From Salinigranum marinum (GTDB lineage Archaea; Halobacteriota; Halobacteria; Halobacteriales; Haloferacaceae), in the NCBI RefSeq assembly GCF_024228675.1, contig NZ_CP100461.1, positions 2,849,398 through 2,913,397 of the forward strand: a DNA stretch of 64,000 bases. The letters are read 5' to 3'. Below are positions 38,303 through 57,404 of the stretch, one piece after another. The notes beneath the pieces were generated by a model. It did not search any database. It had not been told where the DNA came from and saw only the letters and a list, made by a program, of their open reading frames with translations. Positions within the stretch are counted from its first letter, which is position 1. Every line of letters starts with the position of its first letter. The translations under genes were made by a program, and so were the position numbers.

Positions 38303-41170
38303 ATGAGCTCTCACCTTCCACAAAATATCCAAGCAGGATCCGTTATCGACAATAGAAACCGTCTCTGGCGGGTAGATTCCAAAGAGGGGAACGTCGTCAC
38401 GGCGACCCCACTTGACGGGAACCTTGCCGACCGACATCGGTTCTACGCCCCAGTAGAAAACATCGTTGAGGGGAGCCTCGACCCTCCGAATCCAGAGCAG
38501 ATTGGTAGTCCTGAGTTCCAGCGGCTCCTCAACCGCTCGTATCGGCTCTCAATGCTACATGGGACTGCCCCTCTGGTGAGCCTCCAACGCTCTCGTGTGA
38601 TCCCAACGGAGTATCAGCTCACTCCCGTTGTGATGGCATTAGACATGCCGCGCGTTCGGATGCTCCTGGCCGATGACGTCGGTCTCGGGAAGACCATCGA
38701 AGCAGGGTTGATCACGAGTGAGCTCATGGCCCGTAACCAAGCCGAGCGTATCCTGATCATCACCCCTGCCAACCTACGTGAGCAGTGGCGGGAGGCGATG
38801 AATTACTTCTTCCACATCGATGCGGACATCATCAGTCGTCGCCACCGGAAAGCGATGGAGAAGGAGATCCCACCGGGCACTAGCCCGTGGGAGCACCACT
38901 CCAAGCTCATCGTCAGCATCGACTATGCGAAGCAGAACAGCATCCGCAACGAGATCCTCAGTCAGGACTGGGACCTCGTCATCATCGACGAGGCACACCA
39001 GGCCGCGAAGCCCCACGAATCCTCCCCGAATGAAACGGTGGATATGCAGCGATGGGACTTCGCGACGGAGATCACCGAGCACGCCGAGCACTGTCTTCTC
39101 CTGACGGCAACACCGCACAACGGTTACTCTGACTCCTTCGCGAGCCTCCTCCGGATGCTCGATGTCGGGGCGGTATCGGGCCCTCGGCACGATCCGGACA
39201 TTAATCGACAGATTGCACAGCAGCACGTCGTTCAGCGTCGCCGTGACGACGTCAAACAATGGTTTGCGGACGCGGAGGGTGATAGTCCCTTCCCGGAGCG
39301 CGATCAGGATGAGGTCCGGGTCACGCCCACGAACTGGGAGACAGAGACGTACGACGCTGTGCGTGAGTACGGAGACCTCCTGATGTCGACGGCGAAGTCG
39401 TCGGGAGCCAAGAGTGAGACACTTGCCCGTTGGTCTGTCATCCATTTCCTCAAGCGCGCCCTCAGCAGTCCTGAAGCACTACGTCAGTCGCTGAAGAATC
39501 GCCAAGACAAGCTCGAGGAGCGGCTCGACGAACTCGACGAGGAGGACACTATCCAAGAGACAGCTGGGATCTCCGAGTCGATGGCGCAGGCCAATGCGCT
39601 TGACAACGACCCTGGCGAGGAGTATAGTGAGGAAGAAGTCGGTGAGCGGGTCGAACGGGTAGTCGCAGGCGATCGTGGAGCTATTCGGCGTGAGCTGGAC
39701 GCACTCGATGACGTACTGGAGAAGGCGGAGCGCATCACCAAGACACGCGACTCGAAGCTTCAGAAGCTTCTCGACGAGACCCTCCCGAATCGTTTCCAGT
39801 ACCCACGGGTCATCCTCTTCACAAAGTACGTCGACACGCTGGAATACCTCGAATCACAGATTCAGGAGTCGACGAACGACGAGACTGACGTCTTCACACT
39901 CCACGGCTCGCTGAACGAAGCACAACGCAAGGAACGCTTCGCTGAGTTTGAGGAGTCGAGCCGGGCAGTCCTCATCGCGACTGACGTTATCAGCGAAGGG
40001 ATGAACCTTCAGCACGCCTCGAACCAGATCATCCACTACGAACTGCCGTGGAACCCGAACCGTCTAGAGCAGCGGAACGGTCGCATAGACCGCTACGGGC
40101 AGAAGGAAGACGAGGTCGTCATCCGGACGATGGTCGTCGAAGATAAAATGGACGTCGCCGTCCTCGAGACTCTCGTCAGGAAGGCAAATCAGATCAGAGA
40201 GGACTACGGTTTCTCTCCACCGTACTTCGGCGACGACGAGGGGATTCTCAGTCTGTTGGAGGACGAAGGAATCGACGCCGGTGTTCCCCAAGCTACGCTT
40301 GAGGAGTTCGGGAGCAACACCACCACGGCTCGCAGCGACTCAGTGAACGCCTTCGACGACGACACCTTGGACCGCATTAGGTCCGAGTCGTTCTACGGCC
40401 ATACCGAAGTCGGGCTCGATGAAGTCCAGAAGCGACAGGAAGAGACCCACCAGCGTATCGGTGGTTCCGGAACACTAGAGGAGTTCGTCAAAAGCGCACT
40501 CAATCTGTTCAACTGCGACTACGAGATAAACGTCCAGGGGTACCTCGACATCGAGATGACATCCCCCCGCCTCCGTGGCCCGGATATTATGACGGAGTAC
40601 GAGAACGTCACCTTCGACCCTGGTAAGGCATCTCAGTCCTCCGACACCGAGATGCTGGACATCGCCCACCCGCTTGTCCAGCGTTTGATCGAGGCAGTCA
40701 AGGAAACTGCACTGACCGACGAGGACCGCTACGGTCGGACGGCCACCCGCGGCACCATCGAGGTCGACCAACCGACGGCAGTGTACACGGCCCTCGTCCG
40801 TTACGTGGCCGACACCGACCCGAATCCGACGATCATGGAAGAGTTGATTCAAGTCGGACTTCCGGTATACGGGAACAGTCCCTTGGATCAAGATTTGGTT
40901 GGGAGGCTAGAGGACAGCGAGGCCAAACCGGTACAGCGCTCCCAACAGGAGAAGCAGACTGACCTTCGAAGCGCTATCGAGCACGACGGTCTCGACGACG
41001 CCATCGACGACTTGGCAGAGCAACGTCGGGACCAGATTGTGGACCAACGAACGGAGATGCGTGAGCGTCTCAAGGAGTCGGGAGCCGGCGGATGGGCCAC
41101 CGGCATCGACGACGTGGAAACCGCGAGTACCGACCTGCTGACTGTCACCGTCTACTACCCGAGTGCCTAA
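38303..41170 (+). CDS. SNF2-family helicase, DISARM DrmD-like
   Basis: A 955-residue protein. A beta-rich N-terminal part (to about 100) precedes the SNF2 motor: Walker A LLADDVGLGKTIEAGLI (about 122-138), DEAH box VIIDEAHQAAKPHE, motif III LLLTATPHNGYSDSF, and the C-terminal RecA domain with ELPWNPNRLEQRNGRIDRYG. A coiled coil (DKLEERLDELDEED) lies between. This resembles the DrmD helicase of class 1 DISARM, a phage-restriction system. Two bp after its stop the adenine methylase gene begins (41173), making an operon. DrmD assignment is by motif layout and context. Confidence 0.85.
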   Translation: MSSHLPQNIQAGSVIDNRNRLWRVDSKEGNVVTATPLDGNLADRHRFYAPVENIVEGSLDPPNPEQIGSPEFQRLLNRSYRLSMLHGTAPLVSLQRSRVIPTEYQLTPVVMALDMPRVRMLLADDVGLGKTIEAGLITSELMARNQAERILIITPANLREQWREAMNYFFHIDADIISRRHRKAMEKEIPPGTSPWEHHSKLIVSIDYAKQNSIRNEILSQDWDLVIIDEAHQAAKPHESSPNETVDMQRWDFATEITEHAEHCLLLTATPHNGYSDSFASLLRMLDVGAVSGPRHDPDINRQIAQQHVVQRRRDDVKQWFADAEGDSPFPERDQDEVRVTPTNWETETYDAVREYGDLLMSTAKSSGAKSETLARWSVIHFLKRALSSPEALRQSLKNRQDKLEERLDELDEEDTIQETAGISESMAQANALDNDPGEEYSEEEVGERVERVVAGDRGAIRRELDALDDVLEKAERITKTRDSKLQKLLDETLPNRFQYPRVILFTKYVDTLEYLESQIQESTNDETDVFTLHGSLNEAQRKERFAEFEESSRAVLIATDVISEGMNLQHASNQIIHYELPWNPNRLEQRNGRIDRYGQKEDEVVIRTMVVEDKMDVAVLETLVRKANQIREDYGFSPPYFGDDEGILSLLEDEGIDAGVPQATLEEFGSNTTTARSDSVNAFDDDTLDRIRSESFYGHTEVGLDEVQKRQEETHQRIGGSGTLEEFVKSALNLFNCDYEINVQGYLDIEMTSPRLRGPDIMTEYENVTFDPGKASQSSDTEMLDIAHPLVQRLIEAVKETALTDEDRYGRTATRGTIEVDQPTAVYTALVRYVADTDPNPTIMEELIQVGLPVYGNSPLDQDLVGRLEDSEAKPVQRSQQEKQTDLRSAIEHDGLDDAIDDLAEQRRDQIVDQRTEMRERLKESGAGGWATGIDDVETASTDLLTVTVYYPSA

Positions 41171-41758
41171 TCATGAGTGGCCAAGCATCATCTGCCGACG
41201 CTGAAATGGACGCCGAACACATCCCGAAGACAGGGTCGACGACGTTCATCACCACCAGTGGTGGCCTCCTCACAGAACAGTTGGTGAGTAAGCTGCGCCA
41301 GCGCCAGACAGAAGAATCCGCAGTTCGGCCAGAAACCTTCGCCCTCCCGGAGGAGACGCCTCCTTCGGAGTCCGAGCTGGAAAACGAGATCGGCGAAGCG
41401 TGGAATGCTCTCCGTGAACGCTGGGACGAGCTCACGATGAACAACGAGCTGTTCGGGATGGATATCTCGGACGCTCGTAACAAGTGGATTCTCAGACTCT
41501 TCCGCGAACTCGGCTTCGAGCCCGTCTTCCAGCGGGAGAATTTGGAAGCAGGGGGCCTCGAAACGAACCTCTCGCATAAGGGCTGGCCTGACGAGGGGAT
41601 CTCGAACTACGGCGAGATGGAAGGACACCTCGCTCCCGTTCTGCACACGGTCCCACCCGGGCAGCAACTCGACGAGAAACCAGAAGACGCTCCGCGTGGT
41701 GCAAAGAGCCCACACGACACACTTCAGGAGTTCCTGAACGCGAGCGACAACCAAGACT

Positions 41759-43157
41759 CAGTACTTCACGAAGCCGGTTAGTTGAGACGTCTGCTTGCGG
41801 AAGGTGTGCTTAGAACCCAGCAAGCAGACAGTAGACTCCATGAGGACCAGATTCTTAACTTCCTCGTCAACACCCTTGACGAGGAAGTTTCGATCACTCT
41901 CGGTGAGAACGCTCAGATAACGTCGGAAGAGATCTGTGAGGTCCTCGTCGGCGCGTGCGCCGACGGGACCTCAATCTCGACACTTTGTGAGAATAGTGCT
42001 AACTCCCCTCGTGCCAACGCCGTCCTCTATCATCTTCGGACGAAGTTCGAGCTGGAACAGCTCGAACGAGTCGGAAACACACTCCTCCAGCGAGATATTC
42101 TCGATGCCCTTCCCAAGCAGGTGGAGGTCGTCGCTGACCTCCACCTGCGTCCCTACTACGGTGACGAAGACGGCACAGAGGGCCTCTACCACTCGGAAGC
42201 CAAGCGTGGAACAACCGCATTCCACGCGTACGCGACGCTGTACGCACGCGTGAAGAACAAACGCTACACGCTGGCGGTGCGCCGTCTTGTCGACGGCGAC
42301 ACCGCCAGCAGCGTCCTCGCCGAGTTTCTCGGTATCCTTGACGGCCTTGACCTCGGCGTCAAGGCCGTCTACCTCGATCGAGAATTCTACGACAGCAAGT
42401 GTCTCACGCTGCTGCAGGCGCACAACCACGCGTACGTCATCCCGATTATCCGGTGGGGTCAGTCGATCAAGCAAGAACTCTCCGAGGGCTGGAGTCGCGT
42501 GATTCACCACGACATGACGGCGAAACTCGACGGTCACAGCTGGACCGTCGAGTTTCCCGTCTACATCGACTGTACCTACCAGAACGGACGATACGACGAA
42601 CATGGCGTGGCGCGTCACGGCTACGCCGCTGACGCGCCGTTCATCAATTCTCCTCGCGACGCTCGATACCACTACGCGAAACGCTTCGGTATCGAGGCCA
42701 GCTACCGACTCTCCGAGCAAACGATTGCGACGACTACGACACAGGATCCGGCGGTACGGCTGCTGTACGTCGTAGTGAGTTTGCTGTTACAGAACGTGTG
42801 GCGGTATCTGCACTGGGAGTATGTGGCGACGCCCCGCCGAGGCGGGCGTCGCCTCTGGGAGTGGTCGTATAAGGAGTTCACCAACATGATCCGACGGGCA
42901 GCGTGGACGGCCCTCGCGACGCGTCGGGCCGTCCCCGCAAACCGACCGCCGGACGACCGGTTCGTCCGGTAACGACCGATCGAGTACGCCCCTGCGGTGA
43001 GTGGCAAGGCTGTCGCGTCGGCGGCGGATCGCCGCCGACAGCGACGATCTTCTCTTGATCTTCCGGTGACCCCCTCGTCAAGATCGATAGTGGAGTCGAT
43101 TCGACACGGAACTTAAGCTTCAGAGGTGGTTAGCCGAGGAAGTTTCGTGAAGTACTG
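41759..43157 (+). mobile_element. ISH3-family insertion sequence
   Basis: 1399 bp with inverted ends CAGTACTTCACGAA / TTCGTGAAGTACTG and a 5-bp target duplication AGACT (41754-41758 and 43158-43162). ISH3-family elements are about 1.39 kb and make 5-bp duplications, which fits. It splits the methylase after codon 195; in-silico excision restores the frame exactly. Confidence 0.92.
41806..42972 (+). CDS. ISH3-family transposase
   Basis: A 388-residue transposase. The start was set at GTG 41806, giving an N-terminus (LRTQQADSRLHEDQILNFLV) like other ISH3 transposases; a TTG eight codons earlier is less likely. DDE context: VEVVADLHLRPYYGDEDG (first Asp), VKAVYLDREFYDSKCLTLL (second Asp) and KRFGIEASYRLSEQTIATTT (Glu). 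The frame is intact, so the element may be mobile. Confidence 0.92.
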   Translation: MLRTQQADSRLHEDQILNFLVNTLDEEVSITLGENAQITSEEICEVLVGACADGTSISTLCENSANSPRANAVLYHLRTKFELEQLERVGNTLLQRDILDALPKQVEVVADLHLRPYYGDEDGTEGLYHSEAKRGTTAFHAYATLYARVKNKRYTLAVRRLVDGDTASSVLAEFLGILDGLDLGVKAVYLDREFYDSKCLTLLQAHNHAYVIPIIRWGQSIKQELSEGWSRVIHHDMTAKLDGHSWTVEFPVYIDCTYQNGRYDEHGVARHGYAADAPFINSPRDARYHYAKRFGIEASYRLSEQTIATTTTQDPAVRLLYVVVSLLLQNVWRYLHWEYVATPRRGGRRLWEWSYKEFTNMIRRAAWTALATRRAVPANRPPDDRFVR

Positions 43158-44333
43158 AGACTGGGCAGTCGTCACGAACGGGCTGACGCTGCGTGTTCTC
43201 CGAGACTACTACCACACGTACACGCGGGGGTACGTCGAATTCGACCTCGAGAACATGTTCACCAACCGCAACTATGGGGATTTCCGGGCGCTCTACCGCC
43301 TATGTCACGCCTCCCGGTTCATCGAACCTGTATTTGAAGACGATGAAGAGGACGCTATTGAAACTCCACTGGAGCAGCTCTACCAGGTCGCGCTCTCGAC
43401 AGGCGTGAAGGTTGGTCAAGATCTTCAGGATAACGTTGTCAGTGCACTCGAAACGCTCGGGAATGGATTTCTTACCTCGGAAATCGAAACGGCGCTGGAG
43501 GAAGGCGGACAGGATGCTGCGGAGGACTACTACCAGGATTTACTCTACGTCGTTTACCGGCTGCTATTCTTGATGTTTGCCGAACAGAGGGGCATGATGT
43601 CTCAGCGTGATAGTCTGTATACGACCGAGTACAGTGTAACTAAGCTCCGAGAAAGGGCAGAAAAACGTGATCAGAACGATCGCAACACGGACATTTGGGA
43701 AGGGCTAAAAGCGACGTTTGAGTTGGTCGGCGAGGGTGATAGAGTACTGGGAGTCCCTGGCTACAACGGCGACCTGTTTGACGACGAGAATATAGAATAC
43801 ATTCTAGATGCCGAATGTGCGAACAAGAGTCTCTTGAGTGCAGTCTATGACCTTACTCACATAGAACAGGACGGCTATCGCCAACGAATATCGTACGCTG
43901 ATTTAGGTGTCGAAGAGATCGGTGCTGTGTATGAGAGTCTGCTGGAGTTTACACCACAATTAGCTGAGACCGTCATTCAACTGGACGACCGGACAATTTC
44001 TCCGGACTCATTCTACCTTGATGACCGCGGAATGGACCGCAAAGGCACTGGGAGCTACTATACAGACCCTGGCCTTGTCGATGAGCTCATTCAGAGTTCA
44101 CTTAAGCCAGTGGTGGAGGACCGGGTTGACGAAGACGCGTCTAGCAAAGTGCAAAAGCAACAGTTGTTGGATATCACTGTTTGCGATCCTGCCTGTGGGA
44201 GTGGTGCATTTCTCATTGCTGCCAATAATTTCCTTGGCCAGAAGCTCGCAGAAATTCAGTCTGACTCCCTATATCCAGACGAACGGACCATTAGGCAGGC
44301 ACGTCGCTCAGTGGTACAACATTGTCTCTATGG

Positions 44334-45399
44334 AGGGTGTCATAGAAGAGTTCTCACACCGTGATCACGGTACTTCCCGGATTGTCTCCACGTTCGTAGT
44401 TGGTGATTGCGACGACGAGGCGAAGGCACAGGGCGAGAAATACCTGCGCCCGTGCGTGGACGCGGCCTCGGGCGTGCGTTCGCCCGAGGCCGCAGTCCTT
44501 CACTGATTCGTTGGTTCGTTCGACTCCACTACGGCGGTTGTACGTCTCATCCAACGTGGACTGCTTCAACTGAACGTCCTCGCCGTGTTCGGTGATGCGG
44601 TCTTCGACCCTGTACTCAATGTCTTTCGGGTCATCAGCGTTCCGGGCGTTGTATGGAGCGACTGGCACGACCCCTGCGGTCAGCAGGTGGTCGTGCCAGT
44701 CGAGCGTGTCGTAGGCGCTGTCACCGACCATCCAGATCGGTGTGGCGACGGCGAGCGCGTCACGCGTGACGCGCATCGCCGTCTCTTCTGGCGCTTGCTT
44801 ACTCTCGGTGAACTCCGCTCCGATCGGGATCTTTTGCCCGGTCGAGACGATCGTACAGCCGTAGCCGTAGTAGTACTCGTCGTCGGTTGGATCGTAGCAC
44901 TTTGAGGCGTCTGGATCGGCGGGCATCGCCCTCACGTCTGTTGAATCGATACAGTAGGTCAAGTCGAGCAGGCCGCGCCGGGCGGCCTGCTCGACGAGGT
45001 GGTCGAACACCTTGTCAACGACGTGTTCAAGATCGGTGAGAAAGCGATCGACCGCGTCTCTCGACGGCGGTCGATCGAATCCACAGCTCAGCCAGACGAC
45101 CGTGTTCCGAAGCTCTCGTTCAACGGGACGAATGCCGTAGATGTCCTTGTAGTAGCAGTGGAGAAAGCCACGCATCAGTTCTGGTGGTTCGTGGTCTCGT
45201 GTTCGCCCCGTCTTCGCCGGGGCGAACACGTCGAACTCTTCGAGAAACTCGAAAGAGAGGTGCTCGAACAGCGCTAGCGTCTCTGTCTCCACGGCATTGA
45301 AGAACGAGTCTACCGAAGGATCATCTTGCAGGGTCGCTGAACTCATCCACCTCAGCGTTCACCCTGCTCTTTGGTGTGCTAATCGTTCTATGACACCCT
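44334..45399 (-). mobile_element. IS5-superfamily insertion sequence (ISH11-sized)
   Basis: 1066 bp with perfect 14-bp inverted ends AGGGTGTCATAGAA / TTCTATGACACCCT (imperfect similarity extends further) and an 8-bp target duplication CTCTATGG (44326-44333 and 45400-45407). It splits the methylase after codon Gly of HCLYG. Size resembles ISH11 as I remember it, but the subgroup is uncertain. Excision in silico restores the frame. Confidence 0.9.
44354..45346 (-). CDS. Transposase of the IS at 44334-45399 (IS4/IS5 superfamily)
   Basis: A 330-residue DDE transposase: the first Asp probably in LTYCIDSTDVRAMPADPD, the second in WMVGDSAYDTLDWHDHL and the Glu in YNRRSGVERTNESVKDC (an IS4-type Y-R-E motif). 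It covers almost the whole element. The frame is complete. Family placement between IS4 and IS5 groups needs a comparison I cannot run. Confidence 0.9.
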   Translation of the reverse strand: MSSATLQDDPSVDSFFNAVETETLALFEHLSFEFLEEFDVFAPAKTGRTRDHEPPELMRGFLHCYYKDIYGIRPVERELRNTVVWLSCGFDRPPSRDAVDRFLTDLEHVVDKVFDHLVEQAARRGLLDLTYCIDSTDVRAMPADPDASKCYDPTDDEYYYGYGCTIVSTGQKIPIGAEFTESKQAPEETAMRVTRDALAVATPIWMVGDSAYDTLDWHDHLLTAGVVPVAPYNARNADDPKDIEYRVEDRITEHGEDVQLKQSTLDETYNRRSGVERTNESVKDCGLGRTHARGRVHARAQVFLALCLRLVVAITNYERGDNPGSTVITV

Positions 45400-47672
45400 C
45401 TCTATGGTGTAGACCTGAATCCGATGGCCGTTGAGTTAGCGAAAGTCAGCTTATGGATCAATTCGGCAGTTGAAGATAAACCTTTGAGTTTCCTTGATCA
45501 TCGAATCAAGCAAGGTAACTCATTAATCGGAACGACCCCTGAGTTGATGAGCCAGGGGGTTCCCGTTGATGCGTATGACACTTCGAGCGGACGAGATTGG
45601 CACAAAGGTAACGAAATTCGCAGGAGAGTTAGAAAGGAAAATGACAACGTTGATGATCAGCAACAGCAGGTCCGGTTGGATCGTCAATGGGGAGAGGTAG
45701 ATGACGATTATGTTAGTCTTGCAGAACAGCTCGAGCAAGCGGACGAGATAAAAATAGAAGACGTACAAGAAAAAGAGCGAATCTATCGAGAATTCCGTAA
45801 CGAGGACACCTTTCAACGAGAAAAGTTAGCCCATGATGTGTGGACTTCCGCTTTTTATTGGCCCCTTGATGGGTCAGCGGATGAATACCCAACACCCAAC
45901 ACTATCGAGCATATTCGCCTTGATCCACCTGAGCCATCTGATAAGCCAATTGATGAACTGACTGGGTTACAGGGGCTTCAAGTTAGAGCATCGAAAATTG
46001 CAGATGAAGAATCGTTCTTTCATTGGCCGTTAGAATTCCCGGCCGTTTTCTCAGATGGAGGGTTTGATTGCATGATTGGAAATCCTCCGTGGGAATCTTT
46101 AGAAATGCGAGTAGGTGAATTCTTTGGAGTTAGAAAGCCAGAGATTGCTACCGCAGGAACACGGTCAAAGCGTCAAAAAATGATCCAAGAGCTAAAAGAA
46201 ACGGATCCAAAACTCTTTAGCGAATACAAGAGTGCTAAATCGAATATTGAAAGTCGTGTGTCTTTCATTAAAGAAAGTGGAAGATATCCTACAACGAGCC
46301 ATGGGATGATAAATACATATGCACCATTTGCGGAATTAGCAACGGATTATATCAGTGGCTACGGCCGATCTGGAATTATAGTTCCTACTTCTCTGGTAAC
46401 TAGTTCTGATACTCAAGAGTATTTCCAGAAGTTACTAGACGGTGACCGATTAGTTAGTCTGCACGATTTTGAAAACCGACGTGGACTCTTCCCAGAGGTC
46501 GATAGCAGGTATAAGTTTAGCCTTTTAACAATCTGTGGGAAAAGAGAAAATATTGAAGAATTCGAGCTGAGTTTCTACTTACATACAACTCAAGAGTTGG
46601 GTGAGGAAGCCAGTAAAATAAATATGACTAGAGAAGAGATAGTAGCTTTAAATCCTAATACAAAGACGTGCCCAATATTTAGAAACAAAGACGAAGCCGA
46701 AACAACTGTCAAAATATATGGAAATGTTGGGTCATTCATTGATCAAACCGCAGAGGAGGAAAACCCCTGGGGGGTTGAAACTCAACGGATGTTTCACCAG
46801 TCAGATGACTCTGGTCTATTCAAAACAAAGGACGAGTTAGATATAGTAGATCAACAGACAGTCATTAGAACTCATGAAAATGAAAAATACATTCGATTTT
46901 ACGAATCTAAGTATATGCATCAATACGACCATCGATTTGCTACATATTATGGAGTAGAGTCAGGCGACTTAGATAGTGCAAAGCCCCAAAGATTGCCTCG
47001 GGACGTGAAGGACGACCCAGATATATTCGTAGTCCCTCGATACTGGATCCCGCTCGACAGCTATGAGACAAAAAGTGGTGAAGACTGGCATTTAGCTCTA
47101 CGTAAGATCACTAATCCAACCAACGAAAGAACGGTTATTTCAACAATATTGCCAAAAGTCGCCACCGGGAACTCCATGACCCACATTATAAATGCTGAAA
47201 TTGAGGATGCACTCCTCCTCATGTGTTCGTTTAACAGCTTTGTGCTCGACTATGTAGCTAGACAAAAGTTGGGGGGGAATAATCTGAGTCAATTTATCAC
47301 GAAACAACTTCCTATCCCATCACCGGAGCGCTTCGAAAATATTTATTATCAGGAAAGGCCAGTAGGAAAAAAGTTACAAGAACTTGCCACTCAACTGGTT
47401 TTTAACGCACATGACTTGAATGTCATTTCGGACAAAAATATGGATGACATTGTTGAGTACAATAAGCCGGCTGGGAGGCAGAGAGAGGAAATTAGGATTG
47501 AGATCGAGGCGATTATGTGTCATATTTACGATATTTGTGAAGATGATTTCACAAAAATATTTGATTCATTCACCCAGATTAAAAAACGGGATGAGAAAAA
47601 CCATGGATACTTCAAAACCCGAGACGATATTAAAGAAAAATATCACGAAATAGAACAAAAATTGACATTCAA

Positions 47673-48212
47673 TTAGCTAAGAGGTAGTTCACTTACTAAA
47701 TTCTCCATCGATTTGTCGGCATTCGCGGTACTAGACTCTCCAGTTAGTATTATTTTCCCGGTTCTAAAGATCATAAATGTGCCACTTGCATAGGCCGGTT
47801 TATAGAAAATACACTGTGATTGTTCCGGGTTATATTTTGTTTCCCCACATTGTAGTCTATCAAGTAAAACACTGAGCTCAAATTCAGAGGGAAGTTGCTC
47901 TACAAAGACTAGGTTTCGTATTTCAAAGCAATCCTTCTGGTCAATCGTCCAGTCTTGTAGGACATTATTCATTTCACTTTTCAACCGGTCACTGGTCTTT
48001 TGTAGCTCCTCAATTGAACTAGCTCCCGCAATGTTGTATTTTCCTGTTCTAAACAATAGGACGGTGGCCCCATCTGGGTCAAACAATAATTTTAGTGCAG
48101 GATGATACTCTGGATCATAAGTTGTCTTATGACATTCCAGTTCCTTCTGAAGTTGTGCCAGATCCAGTTCTATGTATAGATTCCCTCCTCCAACAGCGTT
48201 CACTAATTCCAT
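47673..48212 (-). CDS. Divergent TATA-binding-protein homologue (second of pair)
   Basis: A 179-residue protein spanning just the two TBP repeats. Repeat 1: MELVNAVGGGNLYIELDL, YDPEYHPALKL and TVLLFRTGKYNIAGASS. Repeat 2: KYNPEQSQCIFYK and FMIFRTGKIILTGESS. These correspond to the saddle strands and the xFxSGKxxxTG motif of TBP. Of the four DNA-kinking Phe positions, the two in the FRTGK strands are kept and the two at QF-P are replaced (H and S). Its stop overlaps that of the methylase gene (convergent). It follows the other TBP homologue by 63 bp. Promoter binding or TBP mimicry is inference. Confidence 0.82.
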   Translation of the reverse strand: MELVNAVGGGNLYIELDLAQLQKELECHKTTYDPEYHPALKLLFDPDGATVLLFRTGKYNIAGASSIEELQKTSDRLKSEMNNVLQDWTIDQKDCFEIRNLVFVEQLPSEFELSVLLDRLQCGETKYNPEQSQCIFYKPAYASGTFMIFRTGKIILTGESSTANADKSMENLVSELPLS

Positions 48213-48275
48213 GGAGAGTTGCCTCTATTAGCCAGATTCTGTTTTGTCATTATATTAATATTTATTCACGAACAT

Positions 48276-48866
48276 TCACCCGAAGCGACGAAGCTGAGAT
48301 CTGAGTTCGTCTATTGCATCTTTAGCATTTTTACGCGACCGGTCTCCAGTATATATGATGCTGCCTGTTCTAGAAATCATAAATACACCTCTATGATTCT
48401 CGGGGTCATATTTTAACTGGGGAAACTGCTCCGGCTCATACTCCACGGAACCTGGATTCAGATGCTCATATAGCTCATTGAGATCTATTTCGTATCCTAA
48501 CTCAGATTTGAATACCAGATAACGAACCTCAAAATCACTGTTTTCTGGATATATAATTAACTTCGCGATATATTCTCTTAGTCTCTGGAACGCTTGCCGT
48601 AAGTCTTGAATACTATTTGCTCCTGCGATCGAGAATGCACCTGTCCTGTAGAGAATTATGGTTGGGCCCTCTTCACTCAACTGAAAACATAGATTAGAGG
48701 CTACCTCTGGGTCGTATTGTATATTGAGTATATCATTACGCTTGGCAATAGACGGAAGGTCAACTTCCACGCCTAAGTCTCCCCCTCCAACCGCGTTAAC
48801 CAGGTGGGTCATCGAATGTTGATATACCTCGCGTAAGGTTATACCGTTTGTTGATGAGTGATCCAT
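48276..48866 (-). CDS. Divergent TATA-binding-protein homologue (first of pair)
   Basis: A 196-residue protein with two TBP repeats after a roughly 18-residue N-terminal extension. Repeat 1: THLVNAVGGGDLGVEVDL, QYDPEVASNLCF, TIILYRTGAFSIAGANS. Repeat 2: VEYEPEQFPQLKYDP and FMISRTGSIIYTGDRS. The DNA-intercalating Phe positions are A, Y, F and S, so three of four differ from canonical TBP (Y is conservative). A start at ATG 48812 (MTHLVNAVGGG) would match its sister exactly; I keep 48866 with reservation. It diverges from the large DUF1998 helicase about 150 bp away. Confidence 0.8.
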   Translation of the reverse strand: MDHSSTNGITLREVYQHSMTHLVNAVGGGDLGVEVDLPSIAKRNDILNIQYDPEVASNLCFQLSEEGPTIILYRTGAFSIAGANSIQDLRQAFQRLREYIAKLIIYPENSDFEVRYLVFKSELGYEIDLNELYEHLNPGSVEYEPEQFPQLKYDPENHRGVFMISRTGSIIYTGDRSRKNAKDAIDELRSQLRRFG

Positions 48867-49014
48867 CCGTGTTCGGATAGCTCTGTCCCCACCAACGTCC
48901 GATGTAGAGGGTTCATGAACGCACACTCTGAGGCTCAACTATCGAGTGTCAAATCGAATCCTAGACAGGAGCACTGCGGGTGAACTTTTTCAGACTGTGC
49001 ATTCATTCTAGGGT

Positions 49015-52000
49015 ATGTCCACAGTTCTCAATCCTTTTGAGGCTCTTGAACAGGTCCAATCCTCATATCAGTCGTATGTTGAGACGTTCCAGAACGTAGA
49101 TGACAGCATTATCGAGTCCTGGATCGAAGACCGCGTTCGAACGGGCAAAGTGCTTTGGAAGGAGCCATTTGTCCAACTGAACCAGCGATTCGAACACGGC
49201 GATACACTCGAACAGTTCGTTGCCGATGGTGAACTCCACGAGGGAGTTTTAGACATCTTCACTGGGCGAGAAGGGAAACCCATCGAACCCTACAAGCACC
49301 AGACTGAGGCGATCCACTCCATTCAGGCAGGGAACAACACCATCGTCTCCACGGGCACGGGGTCGGGGAAGAGCTTCGCATTCGGTATCCCGATCGTAAG
49401 CCACTGCCTCGAAGCCCAGGAACGCGGCGAGGACGGAGTCAAGGCAGTCATCGTCTACCCGATGAATGCACTTGCCAACTCCCAATACGAGGACTTCGCC
49501 GAACGTCTCGACGGCACTGGTCTCCGTCTCGGACTCTACACGGGCGATACCCCGCACAATCCTGACAGCGAGGCCGAGTTCCTCCGGCAGTTCGGCCGCG
49601 AGGAGGCGTACGACTCCGAGGTCGTCTCTCGGGAAGAGATGCAGAACGATCCCCCGGACATCCTGATGACGAACTACGTCATGCTCGACCTCATCCTTAC
49701 CAGGCATGACGACAAGAAGCTCTTCCCGGAGATGCACGAAGGAGCTTTGCAGTATCTCGTCCTCGACGAGATCCACACCTACACCGGGCAGCAGGGAGCT
49801 GACGTCGCCGCACTCATCCGCCGACTGAAACAGAACACGGGGAGCATCGGCGACCTCACCTGTATTGGAACCTCTGCGACCGTTCAGAGCGAAGAAGGCA
49901 TCGACGCAAACGAGGAGATCGCCGACTTCACCGGCCGGATGTTCGGTGCCCCCGTCGACTCAGAAAACGTCGTCCGCGAGTCACACTATCCGCTCGGGCT
50001 CACGGCTGATGAGGAGCTCCCACCCACAGTGAAAGTCACCGCATCGGATATTGAGGGGTTCAGCGGGACTCTCGACTCCGCGCTTGATCTCACGGAGAAG
50101 CTACTGGATCGCTCGCTGATACCCGCTGAGACTGAAGACGAGGAATCCCTCGGGAGTGTGCTGGCAGGCCATCCCGCTATCGAATTCCTCGACACAGAAC
50201 TCAGCAACCAGAGCCAACAGATATTCGCCGGCGATGAAGCCGGGGAGGTGGAGGACCTCGTCGCTCGCTATCAGAAGGAGCACCGCCCGGATGAGTCTCG
50301 CGAGGCGATCGAACGGGAGCTCCAGGCGGCGTTGCTCGTCGGAACGGTCGGCACAACCGCGGTTCAGGGAGAGCAGCAACCGATTTTCGTTCCCAAGCTT
50401 CACTCGTTCTTCAGTCAAGGGAGTGGTCTCGTCGCGTGTATCTCAGAGGACGCATTCGACTCGGAAACACCCCACCTCAGTGACGCTGGGGACGTGGAGT
50501 GTCGGGTGTGTGCGGAAGAAGAAGATCGTCGGCGTGACGCATATCCGCTATCGTTCTGTCGTGGCTGCGGACAGGAGTTTTACACTGTAACCATTGACGA
50601 AGACGGCCACGTATCGCAGGGAACTCTGAGCAACTTCGTCGACACGGAGGAGGACGAGCGAGCGGTATACCTGATGCAAGGCGATTGGGACTCAGACGGG
50701 ACCTCTCTCCCGGACGAGTGGTTGACCGAAGAGGGACTGCTCAAAGACACGTATAGAGAGGCTGAGCCCAGTAAAGCGACATATTTCCCGGATAATAACC
50801 GACTTACGCAGGGTCGCCCGGAAGAAGGGCAGTTCGAGGATGGCATGTTCGCGGGCCAGGGTGTCGACGTCACTATCGTCGAGTCACCGTTCCTGTTCTG
50901 TCCGAACTGCGGCGTCCACTACACTCGCCGTGTGAAGAACGAATTCAACAAGCTGTTCACCTTCGGCACGGTCGGCCGTTCGACGGCGACTGACGTGCTT
51001 GTCGGGAATACGATGCGGAACCTTCCGGAGGACCAACAGAAGACGATCGCGTTCTCCGACAATCGCCAGGATACTGCCCTCCAGGCAGCACACCTCAACA
51101 ATCTGTACCAGCGTGTTCGGTTTCGCCGAGCGCTCTACACAGCACTCCGTGAGCATCGGGGATCCATCGGACTGACCAGTCTGGGTGATCGAATCTTCGA
51201 CGTGCTGGAGGACTACGACTCATTACCACCGGCCATTGACACTGGAATGTTCGGTCCATCTGCCGACCAGCGCGAGCGATACAGCAACTACCTGCTATTC
51301 AACGCGATACTCGAACTCGGCCGCGGCCAGCAGCGGACGCAGCAGAGTCTCGAAGACGTCGGTCTACTGGACATCGAATACGAAAACCTCGACCGCCTCG
51401 CCCAACATGACGAGGTCTGGGAGGGCATCTCGAAACTCGAGACAGCCGACCCAGCCGTGCGGGAAGAGTATGTCCACGGGGTGCTGGATATCTTTCGACG
51501 GAGCAACGCCGTCGACCACGAGAGTACGCTGACCTATACCAATTTCCGGCGGGAGGTTATCAGTAAACTCGACGACGAGGTTCACTTCCACGGACAGGAG
51601 TATTTCAACTTCCCAGTAGGGTACAGCGACACCGCAAACACGGACGGTCCGAACCGTGTTCGCCGACTCACGCATCCGCGTTCACGACACGTCAAGTGGA
51701 CGACGCGGGCTCTCAACGTTGACACCGACACTGCCGCTGAGATCATCACCGCTGTCGTAGACGTCATCAGTGACAAGGAGATCCTTAAGCTGCTAAATCA
51801 GCATTCGCTCCAGTACACCGGAAAGGTGTATATGCTCAATCACAGCGCGGTCAGAGTTACTGAGGCCGACTCCAGCGATGTTCGCGTCTGCCCGAAGTGT
51901 GGGACACCGACTACGAGGTCCGAACTCAACGTCTGCCTGAACTACAGCTGCGGGTCGATGACCCCGGAAGAGACCGAGCTTGAGCACTCGTACTTCTACG

Positions 52001-54312
52001 ATCTCTACACCGAGACGTTCGATGAAGCTGTGGACATCCTCGCCGGAGAACACAGCGGGCAAGTCGAGGGAGAGCAACGGAAAGAACTGGAGTCGAAGTT
52101 CCGAGAAGGTGAGGATATCAATACCATCGTCTGCACGCCGACGATGGAACTAGGGATCGACATCGGTGACCTATCCAACGTCTACATGCGGAACGTCCCC
52201 CCGAACCCGAGCAACTACGCGCAGCGCTCGGGTCGAGCCGGTCGCCAGAATCAGCCTTCGCTCGTCACAACCTTCTGCGGTCGGGGATTCGGCCGTGGCT
52301 CACACGACCAGTACTTCTACCGACACCCCGAACGGATTATTTCAGGGAAGATCAATCCGCCGACTTTCCTGCTGAACAACCAGGACCTCATCGTCTCCCA
52401 TATCAACGCACTCATCTTGGAGACGGTGAATTTGAAGCTCTTCGGGGCACCTGAACAGATTCTCTCTATCGAACCAGAGGACAACAACTACGAGGTCAAA
52501 CCCGACTATCGGGCAGACCTCCAGCGGGAGGTGGACACCAATCGGAGTGAGATCATCCAGGCCGTGAAGGATGCGTTCGCGCGTGAACGAGAGAATACTG
52601 AAGTCGGGGAGTGGCTGACCGACGACTTCATCGAAGACCGCGTGAACGAGTTCGTTGAGAACTTCGACAGTGCGTTCGATCCGTGGCGGCGAGAGTACAC
52701 GAGATTATGGAGGGAACGCCGTCGGCTCAACAACCTCCTCGGTACTGAGAGTGGTTCGTACCAGGACAAGCGCGAGCGTGACGCCATCGAGGAACGTCTG
52801 AACGACATGCGGGCTGGCGACAAGAGCTTCTACACCTACCAGTATCTCCGCTCACAAGGATTCCTGCCGAATTACGGCTTCCCCCGTCACAGCACGACGT
52901 TGACGTTCACTTCACGCGAGGATGATATCCAGCGAGACCAGACGCGGGCAATTAAGGAATTCGCACCTGGGAACCACGTGTACTATGACGGTGAACGGTT
53001 CGCAGTCCGCTACGCCCGTCCACGGACGGAGAACGCGGAACCGGTCACCAAGCACATGCGCATTTGCTCGGAGTGTGAGGCAATTCTGATGGGTGACGAA
53101 GCCAGGGAAGCGGCCGCGTGCGTTGCGTGTGGCTCGTCGTTCGACGGAACACACTCGAATCCGGATGCGATGGAATTCCCCGATCAGCACGCACGGCCGG
53201 AGGAGTACATCACGAGCGACGAGGAGGAACGCCGACGGCAGGGGTACAACATCGATAGCTACTACGAGCAGACCGACCGCGTCGAGGAGTACAGCCTCAC
53301 TGGCAGCGATGGACTGGAAGCACGAGTGACGTACGAGGCGAACGCGAACATCGTCATCGTCAACAGCGGCCTTCGTGACTCTGACGATGACGGACTCAAC
53401 GGATTCGCCCTCTGCATGGAGTGCAATCGCTGGTTGACGAGTGAGGACCAGATCGAGAAGCACGTCGGTGACGAGGGTAACTGCTACGCGAACGCGACAA
53501 GCGAAGTCATCCGACGTGACATCGAGCTCTACACCGAGGGAGGTCACGATACAATCACTCTGACCTCACCGCTACCTGCTGGTATCGATCATGACCGGAC
53601 CGAGGAATTCTACACGACGCTCAAAGAGTCGGTCTACCAAGGTATCCTCAGGGCCTTCGACCTCGATGAGGAAGAACTGGAAACCTTCGTGAAACCAGCG
53701 ACCGACCACGGCTTGCTTACTATCGTCATCTACGAGACAAGCGAAGGCGGGGCGGGTGCGTTGCACTCCCTAATGGAAGAGGCCCGGATGCGGCAGGCCT
53801 TCCGTGAGGCTCAGACGGTCCTCCATGGAGACCCCGATGACGAGGGATGTGAGCGGGCCTGTTACGAATGCCTTCTCTCGTTCTATAACCAGATGGAACA
53901 TGAACTTCTGGACCGCACCTTGGTCGGCTCTTGGTTGGAGTCGATGACCGTAGCCGATCTTGAGGCGGTAGCGACGGAGCCTGCAGTAGAGAAAGACTTC
54001 GACGCCCTCCTGGCTGCGTGTGACTCGGGGTTCGAGCGCGAGGTACTGCAGGAGATTCGGGACGGAGGGTTCGAACTACCTGACGCGGCTCAGCACACCA
54101 TATACGACGGCGACGAGCCAGTCGCAAAGCCGGACTTCTTCTATGAGCGCTCTGGCTCGTCGATTGCTGTATTCGTCGACGGCCCAGATCATCAGAAGGA
54201 TTACGTCAAAGAAGACGACGACAAGAAGCGTAATCGACTACGTCAGATGGGTTTCCGAGTCATAGCGGTCACCTCAACCGAAGACGTGGCGAAAAACTGG
54301 GATTCGATCTGA
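49015..54312 (+). CDS. DEAD/DUF1998 helicase fused to a Vsr/DUF559-like nuclease domain (DrmA/DrmB-like)
   Basis: A 1765-residue protein. RecA1 has Walker A STGTGSGKSFAFGIPI (about 118) and LVLDEIHTYTGQQGAD (about 247); motif III is IGTSATVQ. Zinc clusters include CRVCAEEED..FCRGCGQEF and FCPNCGVHY. RecA2 has TPTMELGIDIGDLSNVYMRN and YAQRSGRAGRQNQP. Further Cys pairs follow (CPKCGTPTTR, CSECEAILMG..CVACG). A DUF1998/MZB Cys cluster CERACYECLLSFYNQMEHEL (about 1610) precedes a C-terminal domain with AKPDFFYER, IAVFVDGPDHQ and KKRNRLRQMGFRVIAV, the DUF559/Vsr nuclease pattern. Classical DISARM has separate DrmA, DrmB and DrmC; here helicase, DUF1998 and nuclease are one chain. DruE or MrfA-type relatives are alternatives. 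Confidence 0.88.
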   Translation: MSTVLNPFEALEQVQSSYQSYVETFQNVDDSIIESWIEDRVRTGKVLWKEPFVQLNQRFEHGDTLEQFVADGELHEGVLDIFTGREGKPIEPYKHQTEAIHSIQAGNNTIVSTGTGSGKSFAFGIPIVSHCLEAQERGEDGVKAVIVYPMNALANSQYEDFAERLDGTGLRLGLYTGDTPHNPDSEAEFLRQFGREEAYDSEVVSREEMQNDPPDILMTNYVMLDLILTRHDDKKLFPEMHEGALQYLVLDEIHTYTGQQGADVAALIRRLKQNTGSIGDLTCIGTSATVQSEEGIDANEEIADFTGRMFGAPVDSENVVRESHYPLGLTADEELPPTVKVTASDIEGFSGTLDSALDLTEKLLDRSLIPAETEDEESLGSVLAGHPAIEFLDTELSNQSQQIFAGDEAGEVEDLVARYQKEHRPDESREAIERELQAALLVGTVGTTAVQGEQQPIFVPKLHSFFSQGSGLVACISEDAFDSETPHLSDAGDVECRVCAEEEDRRRDAYPLSFCRGCGQEFYTVTIDEDGHVSQGTLSNFVDTEEDERAVYLMQGDWDSDGTSLPDEWLTEEGLLKDTYREAEPSKATYFPDNNRLTQGRPEEGQFEDGMFAGQGVDVTIVESPFLFCPNCGVHYTRRVKNEFNKLFTFGTVGRSTATDVLVGNTMRNLPEDQQKTIAFSDNRQDTALQAAHLNNLYQRVRFRRALYTALREHRGSIGLTSLGDRIFDVLEDYDSLPPAIDTGMFGPSADQRERYSNYLLFNAILELGRGQQRTQQSLEDVGLLDIEYENLDRLAQHDEVWEGISKLETADPAVREEYVHGVLDIFRRSNAVDHESTLTYTNFRREVISKLDDEVHFHGQEYFNFPVGYSDTANTDGPNRVRRLTHPRSRHVKWTTRALNVDTDTAAEIITAVVDVISDKEILKLLNQHSLQYTGKVYMLNHSAVRVTEADSSDVRVCPKCGTPTTRSELNVCLNYSCGSMTPEETELEHSYFYDLYTETFDEAVDILAGEHSGQVEGEQRKELESKFREGEDINTIVCTPTMELGIDIGDLSNVYMRNVPPNPSNYAQRSGRAGRQNQPSLVTTFCGRGFGRGSHDQYFYRHPERIISGKINPPTFLLNNQDLIVSHINALILETVNLKLFGAPEQILSIEPEDNNYEVKPDYRADLQREVDTNRSEIIQAVKDAFARERENTEVGEWLTDDFIEDRVNEFVENFDSAFDPWRREYTRLWRERRRLNNLLGTESGSYQDKRERDAIEERLNDMRAGDKSFYTYQYLRSQGFLPNYGFPRHSTTLTFTSREDDIQRDQTRAIKEFAPGNHVYYDGERFAVRYARPRTENAEPVTKHMRICSECEAILMGDEAREAAACVACGSSFDGTHSNPDAMEFPDQHARPEEYITSDEEERRRQGYNIDSYYEQTDRVEEYSLTGSDGLEARVTYEANANIVIVNSGLRDSDDDGLNGFALCMECNRWLTSEDQIEKHVGDEGNCYANATSEVIRRDIELYTEGGHDTITLTSPLPAGIDHDRTEEFYTTLKESVYQGILRAFDLDEEELETFVKPATDHGLLTIVIYETSEGGAGALHSLMEEARMRQAFREAQTVLHGDPDDEGCERACYECLLSFYNQMEHELLDRTLVGSWLESMTVADLEAVATEPAVEKDFDALLAACDSGFEREVLQEIRDGGFELPDAAQHTIYDGDEPVAKPDFFYERSGSSIAVFVDGPDHQKDYVKEDDDKKRNRLRQMGFRVIAVTSTEDVAKNWDSI

Positions 54313-54587: not shown

Positions 54588-56819
54588 CTATCCGGGCTTT
54601 CCGAGCGCGTCAGCGAAGTTCTTCGGTGCGTACATCGTGCCGTCAACGAGCTTCACGACAGGCGCGAATTCGAACCCGAAGCGACGGATCCTCTCTCCCG
54701 TTACTTCGGCCCAGCGTGCAGCGCCTTCTCGAAGCAGTCTGCGCGCCTCGCGGAAGTCTGCCGGCCTGAATCCGACGTCTAACCGGTCCGGATCTGCTCC
54801 CTCGGTTTGCCGAATGCTGCCACCGTACCGGTCGAGCCACCGCGTCCACGGATCATCTCGCTCACCGTACGTCTCGGCACGGAACAGCCCATCCAAGGCT
54901 CCCTCAAGCCCCTCGTGGATGCTGTCTTTGACCGAGTCGATATACCCGGTCACCTCCTGGGCAATGTACTTCGAGGCGATCTGCACTTCGCCGTAGGTGT
55001 GCTCAACGACCGGCCCGAGCCGTTTTAGCGCTCGGTAGACCGTATCGATGTGAACACCGATAGCCTGCGCAAGGTCTTTCGGCGATGTCGTTCCTCCGTC
55101 TGTCAGGAGTGTGTCGACGAGTTCCGCGTCCGTCTCGTTCATCTGGCTCGCGATACCGAACACCTGAGCGTCCTGCTTCTCTTCGATCCTGGGTAGCCGG
55201 TCACGGAGGAGCTTCCGCCATCGGCTGGAGCCTTCGACTTCGAAGTAGTCGTCAGCCACGTAGAACTGCGAGTCTGGTCGGACCGGGATGTCCGACCACT
55301 CGAGAACGTTCAGCAGCGTCTCGTCCAGCTCGCGCTCGAGTTGGTCGAGATCGTCCCAGTACAACGTCTCGTCGTGGATCGAATTCTGGAACGAGACGCC
55401 AATCTTTGGATTCTCAAGCTCCGTTCCCTCCACCGCATCGGGATTCCGCATGTAGTAGTGCTTGATCTCTTTCGCAAGGGTGTGACCGCCGATGAGATCA
55501 CGTGCTCGCATCGATCCGATCGTCGCCGTGTGGTAGTGTCCAGGGCACTCTCTGTCGTCTCGGATCGTCTTGGCATACCCCTCGCGGTCACCGGACAGCA
55601 GCAGCGAGATCCGGTGAATCGTCCCATCGTAGGCGATGACCCTGCCCGTCTTTCCATCTGTGACTCGAACGTACAGCTCTGCGTCGACGATATTCGAGGA
55701 CGAATGTGCTGCTTCGGGTGCGAAATCTTCCGGGTAGATCGGGGTGGGACTGTTGAAGCGGAACCCTTGCCTGTCAGCCAGCGATGCTAACGCACGCTGC
55801 AGGATGTGGGGGTACTGCTCGAAGTCCCAGTTCGCCCCCTCCATCTCGATATCGTATCCCTCGATATCGCACGGGTTCGACATGGATCGAGCACCCTCGA
55901 CCGTCTCGATGTTAGGCCACCGCGGGGAGATACGGAAGTACGCCCGCTTACGCGCCTCTTTCTTCGCGTCCGACCACGAGGAGTACGCGTTCGGGTAGAC
56001 GTACACGAGATACTCGCGGACCTCGTCGAGACGGAAGCTTGGATCGTCGCGAGGCGCGATACCGCACCCTTTGAATCCGAATTCAACAGCCCAGTCGTCA
56101 CCGTCGATCTCGACATCGGTACGGAGACGACCGTGTTTCTCGAAGTCGTGCTCCTTCTGCAGGGAGTTGAGACCGAAGTAGGACCGAAGCGGGTTGTCGA
56201 GGTGCGAACAGTCCCATTTGAGATACGCGTGGAACTCGTGCGGCTGTGGATCGATAAAGAGCCTCGACGCCTCTTCTTCCTCGTCTTCAGCTTCACGTTC
56301 GACCTCCTGGTCGTTGAAGGATTCGTCCTCGACTGGCTCGCTCGTCTGCTCTCGATGCTGTGCTCGCTTCTGAGCTGTCTGGTACGCCTCACAGCCGTTC
56401 AGGTGAGCTTCGAGGTCTGCCCTTCGGGTGATGGGATGCTTGCAGTAGCGGCAGTGTGCGACGCGCTCGGATGGACAGGTCCCTTCGTGAGCGCTTGCGT
56501 CGAACTTGTCGTCGAGGCGGAGCCGACAGAATCGGCACTCTGCAACATGAGTCGACGTACGCGAGAAGGTCGGTCCGACAGAGCAGCGTCCGTTCGTCCG
56601 CTGGCTTGACTGTGCGTCGGCGGTGGTGAGCTCGCCCGTGTCCCGATTGGTCGACGAATCAGTGGTCTCAGGTTCCGGCTTGACCTGGTCTGACCCTGCA
56701 TCCTTCCTGAGAGCGTCTGCCTCGGGTTGGTCGACCGAGGATTCGATAGTGTCTCTGTCGTCGCTTGTGACGGCTTCAGCTGCATCGAGTTGGTCGAAGA
56801 GGTCGTCCGGGTCCGTCAC
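54588..56819 (-). CDS. DUF7845-like protein with N-terminal zinc fingers
   Basis: A 743-residue protein of a kind common on haloarchaeal integrated elements and plasmids (I recall DUF7845). Two zinc-finger-like motifs: ECRFCRLRLDDKFDASAHEG+TC (about 95-115) and HCRYCKHPITRRADLEAHL+NGC, then a long acidic linker. The C-terminal part has a helix-turn-helix (SPKDLAQAIGVHIDTVYRAL) and closing sequence EFAPVVKLVDGTMYAPKNFA. I chose GTG 56819 because it overlaps the stop of the preceding micro-ORF (GTGA) and has a weak GGGGTGG upstream. Function unknown; DNA binding is likely. Confidence 0.82.
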   Translation of the reverse strand: MTDPDDLFDQLDAAEAVTSDDRDTIESSVDQPEADALRKDAGSDQVKPEPETTDSSTNRDTGELTTADAQSSQRTNGRCSVGPTFSRTSTHVAECRFCRLRLDDKFDASAHEGTCPSERVAHCRYCKHPITRRADLEAHLNGCEAYQTAQKRAQHREQTSEPVEDESFNDQEVEREAEDEEEEASRLFIDPQPHEFHAYLKWDCSHLDNPLRSYFGLNSLQKEHDFEKHGRLRTDVEIDGDDWAVEFGFKGCGIAPRDDPSFRLDEVREYLVYVYPNAYSSWSDAKKEARKRAYFRISPRWPNIETVEGARSMSNPCDIEGYDIEMEGANWDFEQYPHILQRALASLADRQGFRFNSPTPIYPEDFAPEAAHSSSNIVDAELYVRVTDGKTGRVIAYDGTIHRISLLLSGDREGYAKTIRDDRECPGHYHTATIGSMRARDLIGGHTLAKEIKHYYMRNPDAVEGTELENPKIGVSFQNSIHDETLYWDDLDQLERELDETLLNVLEWSDIPVRPDSQFYVADDYFEVEGSSRWRKLLRDRLPRIEEKQDAQVFGIASQMNETDAELVDTLLTDGGTTSPKDLAQAIGVHIDTVYRALKRLGPVVEHTYGEVQIASKYIAQEVTGYIDSVKDSIHEGLEGALDGLFRAETYGERDDPWTRWLDRYGGSIRQTEGADPDRLDVGFRPADFREARRLLREGAARWAEVTGERIRRFGFEFAPVVKLVDGTMYAPKNFADALGKPG

Positions 56820-56893
56820 GCCGACCACCCCACTTCAATGGTCGGTGAATTGGCGGCGTAACGCTCAATTGGCCCGGCACAGACGTTACACAC
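56816..56893 (-). CDS. Micro-ORF with CxxC, coupled to the DUF7845-like gene
   Basis: A 25-residue frame beginning MCNVCAGPIERYAANSPTIE (GTG start). A consensus Shine-Dalgarno (minus-strand GGAGGT, plus-strand 56902-56907) sits 8 bases before the GTG. The stop overlaps the DUF7845-like GTG (GTGA), and the start overlaps the previous micro-ORF stop by 8 bp. It may be a leader peptide or a half zinc-knuckle; being so short, coding status rests on the Shine-Dalgarno and overlaps. Confidence 0.55.
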   Translation of the reverse strand: MCNVCAGPIERYAANSPTIEVGWSA

Positions 56894-57142: not shown

Positions 57143-57404
57143 GTCGACCACCTCCGTTCCCTCACAGGATCGCAAGCAAACGGCGACCCGCGCTTGTTTT
57201 CCTGATGAACTCCCTTCTGCGAGGGAGCGTTCTCAAGCCCAGAAATGGCGAATCCGGCCGAATCAGAGTCCCTACCTTGCGGTCGTGAACCCTGAGTATA
57301 ACTGAGGAACAGTAGTGGACTCGCCGGGAGTCCCGCGAGCGAGCGCAGCGAGCGAGTGGGACTACGGCGAGTCCACGACTGAGCGAACGAAGTGAGTGAA
57401 GAAG
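57143..57404. other. Right boundary region of the element, no firm gene
   Basis: Contains the Shine-Dalgarno of the micro-ORF chain, a possible leader frame ending at 57139 without a clear start, an AT-rich patch near 57294-57306 that could be a promoter for the minus-strand chain, and the partial tRNA repeat and hairpin at 57315-57376. I see no other gene. Confidence 0.5.
57315..57376. repeat. Partial tRNA-Ala 3' repeat forming a 62-nt hairpin
   Basis: GTGGACTCGCCGGGA (57315-57329) repeats the tRNA-Ala 3' end at 57404-57418 in the same orientation. Its first 12 bases also pair with CGGCGAGTCCAC at 57365-57376; AGTCCC (57329-57334) and GGGACT (57358-57363) extend the stem around a GCGAGCGAGCG-rich loop. 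It may be a leftover attachment site from an earlier integration or a processing/termination hairpin for the tRNA transcript. Confidence 0.6.

Follow-up and report, generated by a model that had tools for sequence, protein, structure and literature searches.

Haloarchaea are known to carry supernumerary general transcription factors. Among their TATA-binding proteins (TBPs), Becker et al. 2014 described many tbpC-like ones that have lost a pair of Phe residues, and left their role open; no tbpC transcript was detected in the conditions tested (PMC4230888). Coker and DasSarma 2007 deleted tbpC and observed no apparent phenotype (PMC2121645). TBPs are also carried by TALON and TOTE, which are conflict systems of bacteria (PMC12458937, citing Aravind et al. 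2022). ARMADA Type I was described by Bell et al. 2025 (PMC12458937) and consists of a YprA-like helicase with DUF1998 and a C-terminal Vsr-type nuclease, a BrxHII/DrmD-like helicase, and a PglX-like methyltransferase (MTase). C proteins, which belong to bacterial Type II restriction-modification (R-M) systems, are small DNA-binders that form helix-turn-helix (HTH) dimers (PMC3695507, PMC8053105).

Here we analyse two TBP genes in a 64,000-nucleotide stretch of Salinigranum marinum DNA, hereafter the window. A literature search conducted largely among papers free of subscription gave no report that links TBPs to archaeal BREX, DISARM or R-M systems, and two R-M surveys, of Halobacteria and of archaea, do not mention TBPs. 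A preliminary description of this DNA knew of no general transcription factor paralogue described as part of a restriction-type defence locus. This stands for the present proteins, but the bacterial TOTE/TALON TBPs were already known (PMC12458937).

Two divergent TBPs in the window

TBP1 and TBP2 are encoded by adjacent genes on the minus strand (Table 1). Both match the Pfam TBP family (PF00352) over two repeats, TBP1 with E 9e-27 and 93.2 bits and TBP2 with E 3e-31 and 107.5 bits, against a curated cut-off of 22.9 bits. AlphaFold2 predicts a complete TBP saddle for each (mean pLDDT 95.2 for TBP1 and 95.6 for TBP2). With Foldseek, the best PDB match is 1ais_A for the TBP1 model (E 6.5e-14, TM 0.84) and 7egb_P for the TBP2 model (E 5.5e-15, TM 0.91), and the top PDB matches of both are all TBPs, archaeal and eukaryotic. 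Profile and structure thus bear out the preliminary description of two adjacent genes for two-repeat TBP-fold proteins.

The set of four intercalating Phe residues of general TBPs is incomplete in both proteins. TBP1 has two of the four left, one per half and in each case the second (FRTGK type), and TBP2 has one, which is the first of its C half (YEPEQFP), in agreement with the losses first read from the sequence (only the FRTGK pair kept in one protein, only the second-repeat QF in the other). Residue comparison finds the TFB-contact stirrup retained in TBP2 and one TFB-contact Glu also missing from TBP1, which suggests that TFB contact is kept in TBP2 and weakened in TBP1. The two proteins are ~40% identical to each other, and the same genome encodes two further TBPs elsewhere, both canonical. 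Fold and profile therefore place TBP1 and TBP2 in the family, although they are not ordinary general TBPs.

Table 1. Positions of the TBP pair and of the surrounding locus in the window
Feature	Position	Strand	Description
DrmD/BrxHII-like SNF2 helicase (ArmC-like)	38303..41170	+	955 aa; PADLOC DrmD 6.5e-131, BrxHII 2.6e-93
Methyltransferase N-terminal piece (PglX/DrmMI-like, ArmB-like)	41173..41796	+	tblastn, L041 residues 1-209, 67% identity
First insertion sequence in methyltransferase gene	41745..43171	+	ORF 41782-42972; imperfect 28-nt terminal inverted repeats
Methyltransferase middle piece	43159..44334	+	SAM-binding motif DPACGSG; L041 residues 196-588
Second insertion sequence	44333..45400	-	DDE transposase ORF 44354-45346; 28-nt inverted repeats
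Methyltransferase C-terminal piece	45385..47676	+	NPPW motif, target-recognition half; Pfam Eco57I 5.2e-16
TBP1	47673..48212	-	179 aa; divergent two-repeat TATA-binding protein
TBP2	48276..48812	-	178 aa from conserved start MTHLVNAVGGG; ORF open to 48938, maybe longer
Intergenic region between divergent TBP2 and ArmA-like genes	48813..49014	.	Candidate site of a shared promoter
YprA/DruE-like DEAD helicase (ArmA-like)	49015..54312	+	1765 aa; Pfam DEAD 2.6e-25, PADLOC DruE3 5.2e-132

The host locus

The TBP pair sits between the methyltransferase and the large helicase genes, on the opposite strand, as first described, but the methyltransferase is not a single gene. The intact 1350-aa methyltransferase of another locus, L041, was used as tblastn query, and because the match to this one protein is cut into three by two insertion sequences, the window methyltransferase is broken in this strain. 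The C-terminal piece corresponds to L041 residues 581-1346 at an identity of only 38%. The inverted repeats of the first insertion sequence lie at 41745-41772 and 43144-43171; the transposase of the second matches Pfam DDE_Tnp_1 (8.7e-26), and the direct repeat CTCTATGG is found on either side of it. Since the methyltransferase gene is broken, the defence system of the window may now be inactive.

The ArmC-like helicase matches NCBIfam DISARM_DrmD with E 4.2e-139, yet falls below the cut-off of that model. The ArmA-like helicase has a MrfA Zn-binding (DUF1998) domain (Pfam MZB, 7.2e-8), and its C-terminus has a weak MTES_1575/Vsr-like nuclease match (6.2e-4, below cut-off). The locus fits ARMADA Type I in the genes that it contains and in their order, and this assignment replaces the earlier label of a DISARM-like locus. 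DISARM Class 1 was rejected: the scanned locus proteins include no separate DrmA, DrmB or DrmC, only DrmD-like and DrmMI-like proteins and one DruE-like helicase. TALON/TOTE was rejected as well, with no TPR-CSD, NERD or other TOTE effector domains among the same proteins.

The region from ~28500 to 57400 is a low-G+C island (~0.40-0.62 compared with 0.65-0.73). An integrase-like gene occupies 27747-28820 and a tRNA-Ala gene 57404-57476; a search for attachment-site repeats at this tRNA gene gave no flanking direct repeats of at least 14 bases. Next to the ARMADA locus, 54588-56828 encodes a DUF7845 protein with an HTH and a possible zinc-finger region, and a relative is present at 16637-18016 of L073, near a TBP-linked DISARM-like locus. 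Also inside the island, 34572-35828 encodes a 418-aa protein with a weak C-terminal match to restriction endonucleases (YraN/CARF-PDDEXK type).

Neighbourhood of divergent haloarchaeal TBPs

TBP2 was used as query over 392 haloarchaeal genomes, which returned many divergent TBPs. Up to 20 kb of surrounding DNA was taken for each of 80 loci and of 20 further loci meant as canonical controls, and their genes were called and clustered. One control, L125, proved to be divergent and linked to a Type I system and is counted with the divergent TBPs. Of the 104 divergent TBPs, 77 directly adjoin a gene of R-M, BREX, DISARM-like or ARMADA type, and 98 have such a gene within three genes. The corresponding counts are 0 and 1 for 19 canonical TBPs, and 5 and 22 for 340 other genes of the same loci, which lie more than six genes away and are by construction biased away from the systems. 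Despite this large contrast the survey is not a census, because of that bias and because the loci were picked by similarity to the defence-linked TBP2, which places more distant TBPs outside the sample.

The neighbouring methyltransferases are PglX/DrmMI-like, Type IIG, Type ISP, DUF1156, D12 and N4/N6 enzymes, and other neighbours are DrmD, HsdM/HsdS/HsdR, BrxC/PglZ and PLD-SNF2 helicases. The systems linked are Type I R-M, BREX, Type IIG, Type ISP, DISARM-like pairs and ARMADA. The link is thus to methyltransferase-containing systems in general and not to ARMADA in particular. The co-occurrence with defence genes anticipated at first holds, in that homologues adjoin such genes, but it is shared by many methyltransferase systems. 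Neither models without a saddle nor homologues confined to places away from defence genes appeared.

Coupling is often tight, with 27 same-strand neighbours within 10 bp. Two or more divergent TBPs are present at 21 of 81 loci, and many copies are plasmid-borne. Among the locus neighbours, no TFB gene is co-encoded beside the divergent TBPs. When BREX and Type I loci were fetched from the opposite direction, most were without a TBP. A TBP is absent from most haloarchaeal BREX loci and from around half of the Type I loci sampled, so it is not required by these systems.

Phylogeny and selection

In a maximum-likelihood tree of haloarchaeal TBPs made by a quick method, 100 divergent TBPs split from the canonical ones on a branch that is starred in the tree and form a separate clade. 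Three TBP homologues fall outside the starred branch, none with such a defence neighbour; L041_8981, a very long row, is likewise placed outside, though with uncertainty. The 124 non-haloarchaeal genomes sampled from the phylum gave no match scoring above canonical TBPs. Labels for system type are clustered in the tree, with 39 changes where shuffled labels average 63.1 and none of 200 shuffles is as low, and subclades are dominated by one system (DISARM-like 19/20, Type I 11/14, BREX 5/5). A dN/dS value was obtained for nine close pairs, of which two are near saturation, and is 0.06-0.15 throughout. The divergent TBPs are under purifying selection and are therefore, as judged from their sequences, functional.

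These results bear on whether the genes are ordinary TBP paralogues hitch-hiking in accessory islands or plasmids, or decaying copies without function, an option once raised for TbpC. TBP paralogues are frequent in haloarchaea, many of the divergent copies are on plasmids, and tbpC has neither an apparent deletion phenotype (PMC2121645) nor a transcript in the tested conditions (PMC4230888), all of which would agree with such an origin. Low dN/dS, a neighbour enrichment far beyond that of other genes of the same loci, and the clustering of system labels speak against it. The explanation is already unlikely, and we give it very little credence.

Conserved residues

The N-terminal Phe pair is lost and the C-terminal pair kept (--FF) in 79 of the 104 divergent TBPs. 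The TFB-contact Glu residues, whose positions we take to be those of the known TBP-TFIIB contact, are present in 95 and 99 of the 104. Identity to canonical TBP is 46% in the C half and 29% in the N half, and conservation is 0.43 in the DNA-face strands versus 0.27 in the helices. By these measures, most of the clade retains the C-terminal TATA half and the TFB contact, and has a remodelled N-terminal half. The window pair is more altered and has lost more Phe than the average of its clade, and the TbpC-like pattern is absent from both TBP1 and TBP2.

One role proposed at first was that of a decoy. In the form considered here, such a decoy would bind TFB without forming a productive promoter complex and withdraw it from viral or all transcription during infection. 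Retained TFB contact residues together with the missing N-half Phe pair in 79/104 are what a decoy could show. It would not explain, however, why the neighbours are specifically methyltransferase systems or why the DNA-face strands are also held by purifying selection, and its constant expression should be toxic. We regard the decoy as improbable.

In Halobacterium NRC-1, the pNRC100 TBP VNG_RS12735 has the --FF pattern; its gene shares 4 bp with a helicase gene and comes after methyltransferase genes that ISH27 interrupts. Because all four Phe are present in both of the other full-length TBPs checked on pNRC100, VNG_RS12735 is probably tbpC, from its Phe pattern and plasmid. Halobacterium tbpC thus appears to be a member of the defence-linked TBP group. 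The break parallels that in the window: the methyltransferase linked to the putative tbpC is split by an insertion sequence, and the TBP and helicase are intact.

TBPs at ARMADA loci and TBP alleles

We compared 80 ArmA-like loci from public genomes, in which a TBP was sought within the fetched flanks and many contigs are short. Only Halorussus marinus (L139) and Halorientalis regularis (L155) have one; L041 and the window are two further TBP-bearing ARMADA loci. The flanks of the haloarchaeal loci L140, L141, L142, L144 and L147, and those of the bacterial and methanogen homologues in the set, contain no TBP, on contigs that are often short. Therefore, a core part of ARMADA was rejected as a role for the TBP, which is missing at roughly half of the closely related haloarchaeal loci examined and at every bacterial and methanogen one. 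Where present, one TBP is directly 5' of ArmA. The gap between methyltransferase and ArmA is variable and holds an ORF with a PLD-like look at L147 and another large ORF at L144.

At L041, L139 and L155, and also at L141 and L142, DNA that is ~80-90% identical surrounds one unrelated block, which extends from the target-recognition half of the methyltransferase almost as far as the start of ArmA. This is a sign of specificity-cassette exchange. The TBPs of L041, L139 and L155 lie in or beside the exchanged block, which hinted at a TBP that partners the target-recognition half. This candidate was dropped, since in 78 pairs from DISARM-like operons the TBP and the target-recognition half of the methyltransferase are uncorrelated (r = -0.02). 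L060 and L066 have methyltransferases that are 99% and DrmD proteins that are 98% identical, and TBPs that are 71% identical. Their TBPs (8529-9077 in L060, 8324-8872 in L066) stand at the operon end, as if two alleles had been swapped. Among 55 Type I pairs, the correlation of the TBP is similar for M (0.50), R (0.56) and S (0.61) and singles out none of them. The independence of TBP alleles from the target-recognition half in DISARM-like operons is what would be expected of a regulator, not of a specificity subunit.

This bears on a further possibility, namely that the TBPs belong to an ARMADA, BREX or R-M complex as DNA-binding subunits, which recognise or bend DNA or bind hybrids and have no transcription role. 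The close and often overlapping coupling with helicase or methyltransferase genes would suit such a subunit, and the Phe loss in the window pair suggests altered DNA contacts. In addition, PMC12458937 and PMC3710099 report TBPs in bacterial TALON/TOTE and TBP-like domains fused to RNase LS and RNase HIII. However, homologous bacterial and methanogen systems manage without a TBP, one clade serves unrelated enzyme sets, and alleles do not track the target-recognition half in DISARM-like operons. The TFB-contact stirrup, which is of no use to a pure DNA-binder, is moreover the best-kept part. We therefore consider a DNA-binding subunit unlikely, though less so than a decoy.

Candidate promoter elements

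The only strongly conserved promoter element found is TAGTCTAAGTAAAGACTATA, a palindrome plus TATA in 12 DISARM-like operons (L048, L049, L056, L059, L060, L062, L065, L066, L073, L092, L102 and L106). It is located ~28 nt ahead of the start codon of a 63-aa AbrB-like gene, the first gene of DISARM-like MTase-DrmD-TBP operons. In the other sampled loci, outside the operons opened by this gene, the element was not seen. Because it occurs only where the AbrB-like gene is present, TAGTCTAAGTAAAGACTATA may belong to the AbrB-like protein. The window contains nothing resembling TAGTCTAAGTAAAGACTATA, and no shared promoter element was found there.

Discussion

In our survey, both the neighbouring genes and the tree connect a divergent group of haloarchaeal TBPs, to which tbpC appears to belong, with immune systems. 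Methyltransferase-containing defence systems seem to have recruited this clade repeatedly and optionally, and we infer that its members would act as dedicated promoter factors, a reading we hold to be evenly poised between right and wrong. Optional presence, unrelated enzyme sets, the lack of a TBP at bacterial and methanogen ARMADA loci, and the kept TFB-binding half favour a promoter factor over an enzymatic subunit, and among the three roles first proposed, those of promoter factor, decoy and DNA-bend sensor, the first fits best. Each divergent TBP would serve its linked system, with the conserved C half binding the upstream TATA half together with host TFB. The altered N half might shift promoter choice, or weaken or inhibit the complex. 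Expression of nuclease or helicase and methyltransferase would thereby be timed or limited, as by C proteins in bacterial R-M. In the window, the TBPs might act on the promoter region between the divergent TBP2 and ArmA genes.

Several observations count against promoter factors. No TFB is co-encoded, the TBP is not required, the window pair has lost additional Phe residues, TBP1 lacks a contact Glu, and TAGTCTAAGTAAAGACTATA may belong to the AbrB-like protein. In addition, the TOTE/TALON TBPs work in bacteria, without archaeal-type transcription (PMC12458937), so that by analogy a TBP can serve defence without it. A more specific proposal is that the clade is the haloarchaeal equivalent of R-M controller proteins, timing many unrelated methyltransferase-based systems via host TFB and a remodelled N half, with alleles exchanged independently of specificity; we offer it tentatively, as slightly more likely to be wrong than right.

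If the TBPs are indeed promoter factors, what was a basal transcription factor now serves as a controller devoted to R-M and R-M-like systems. This would explain how such systems can become established in archaea without self-damage, and would provide a sequence marker for new archaeal defence loci. Since tbpC knockouts have already been made, the idea is open to direct testing.

Like TbpC and the tbpC-like TBPs, the window pair is divergent, haloarchaeal and has lost intercalating Phe residues, but the residues lost are different ones, and the TbpC papers do not report a defence context (PMC4230888, PMC2121645). The main text on ARMADA Type I (PMC12458937) names no TBP; here, the TBP is an optional haloarchaeal addition. 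With TALON/TOTE (PMC12458937), the window shares free-standing TBP-family proteins encoded in a defence locus. TALON/TOTE, however, have their own TPR-CSD and NERD or other effectors, partners that were not recognised in the window, and TALON is bacterial, with no TBP-based transcription. Like the defence-linked TBPs, C proteins are small, belong only to some systems, and are encoded beside methyltransferase or restriction genes. C proteins are HTH dimers, whereas the window proteins are predicted TBP saddles, and the likeness would be one of proposed function only.
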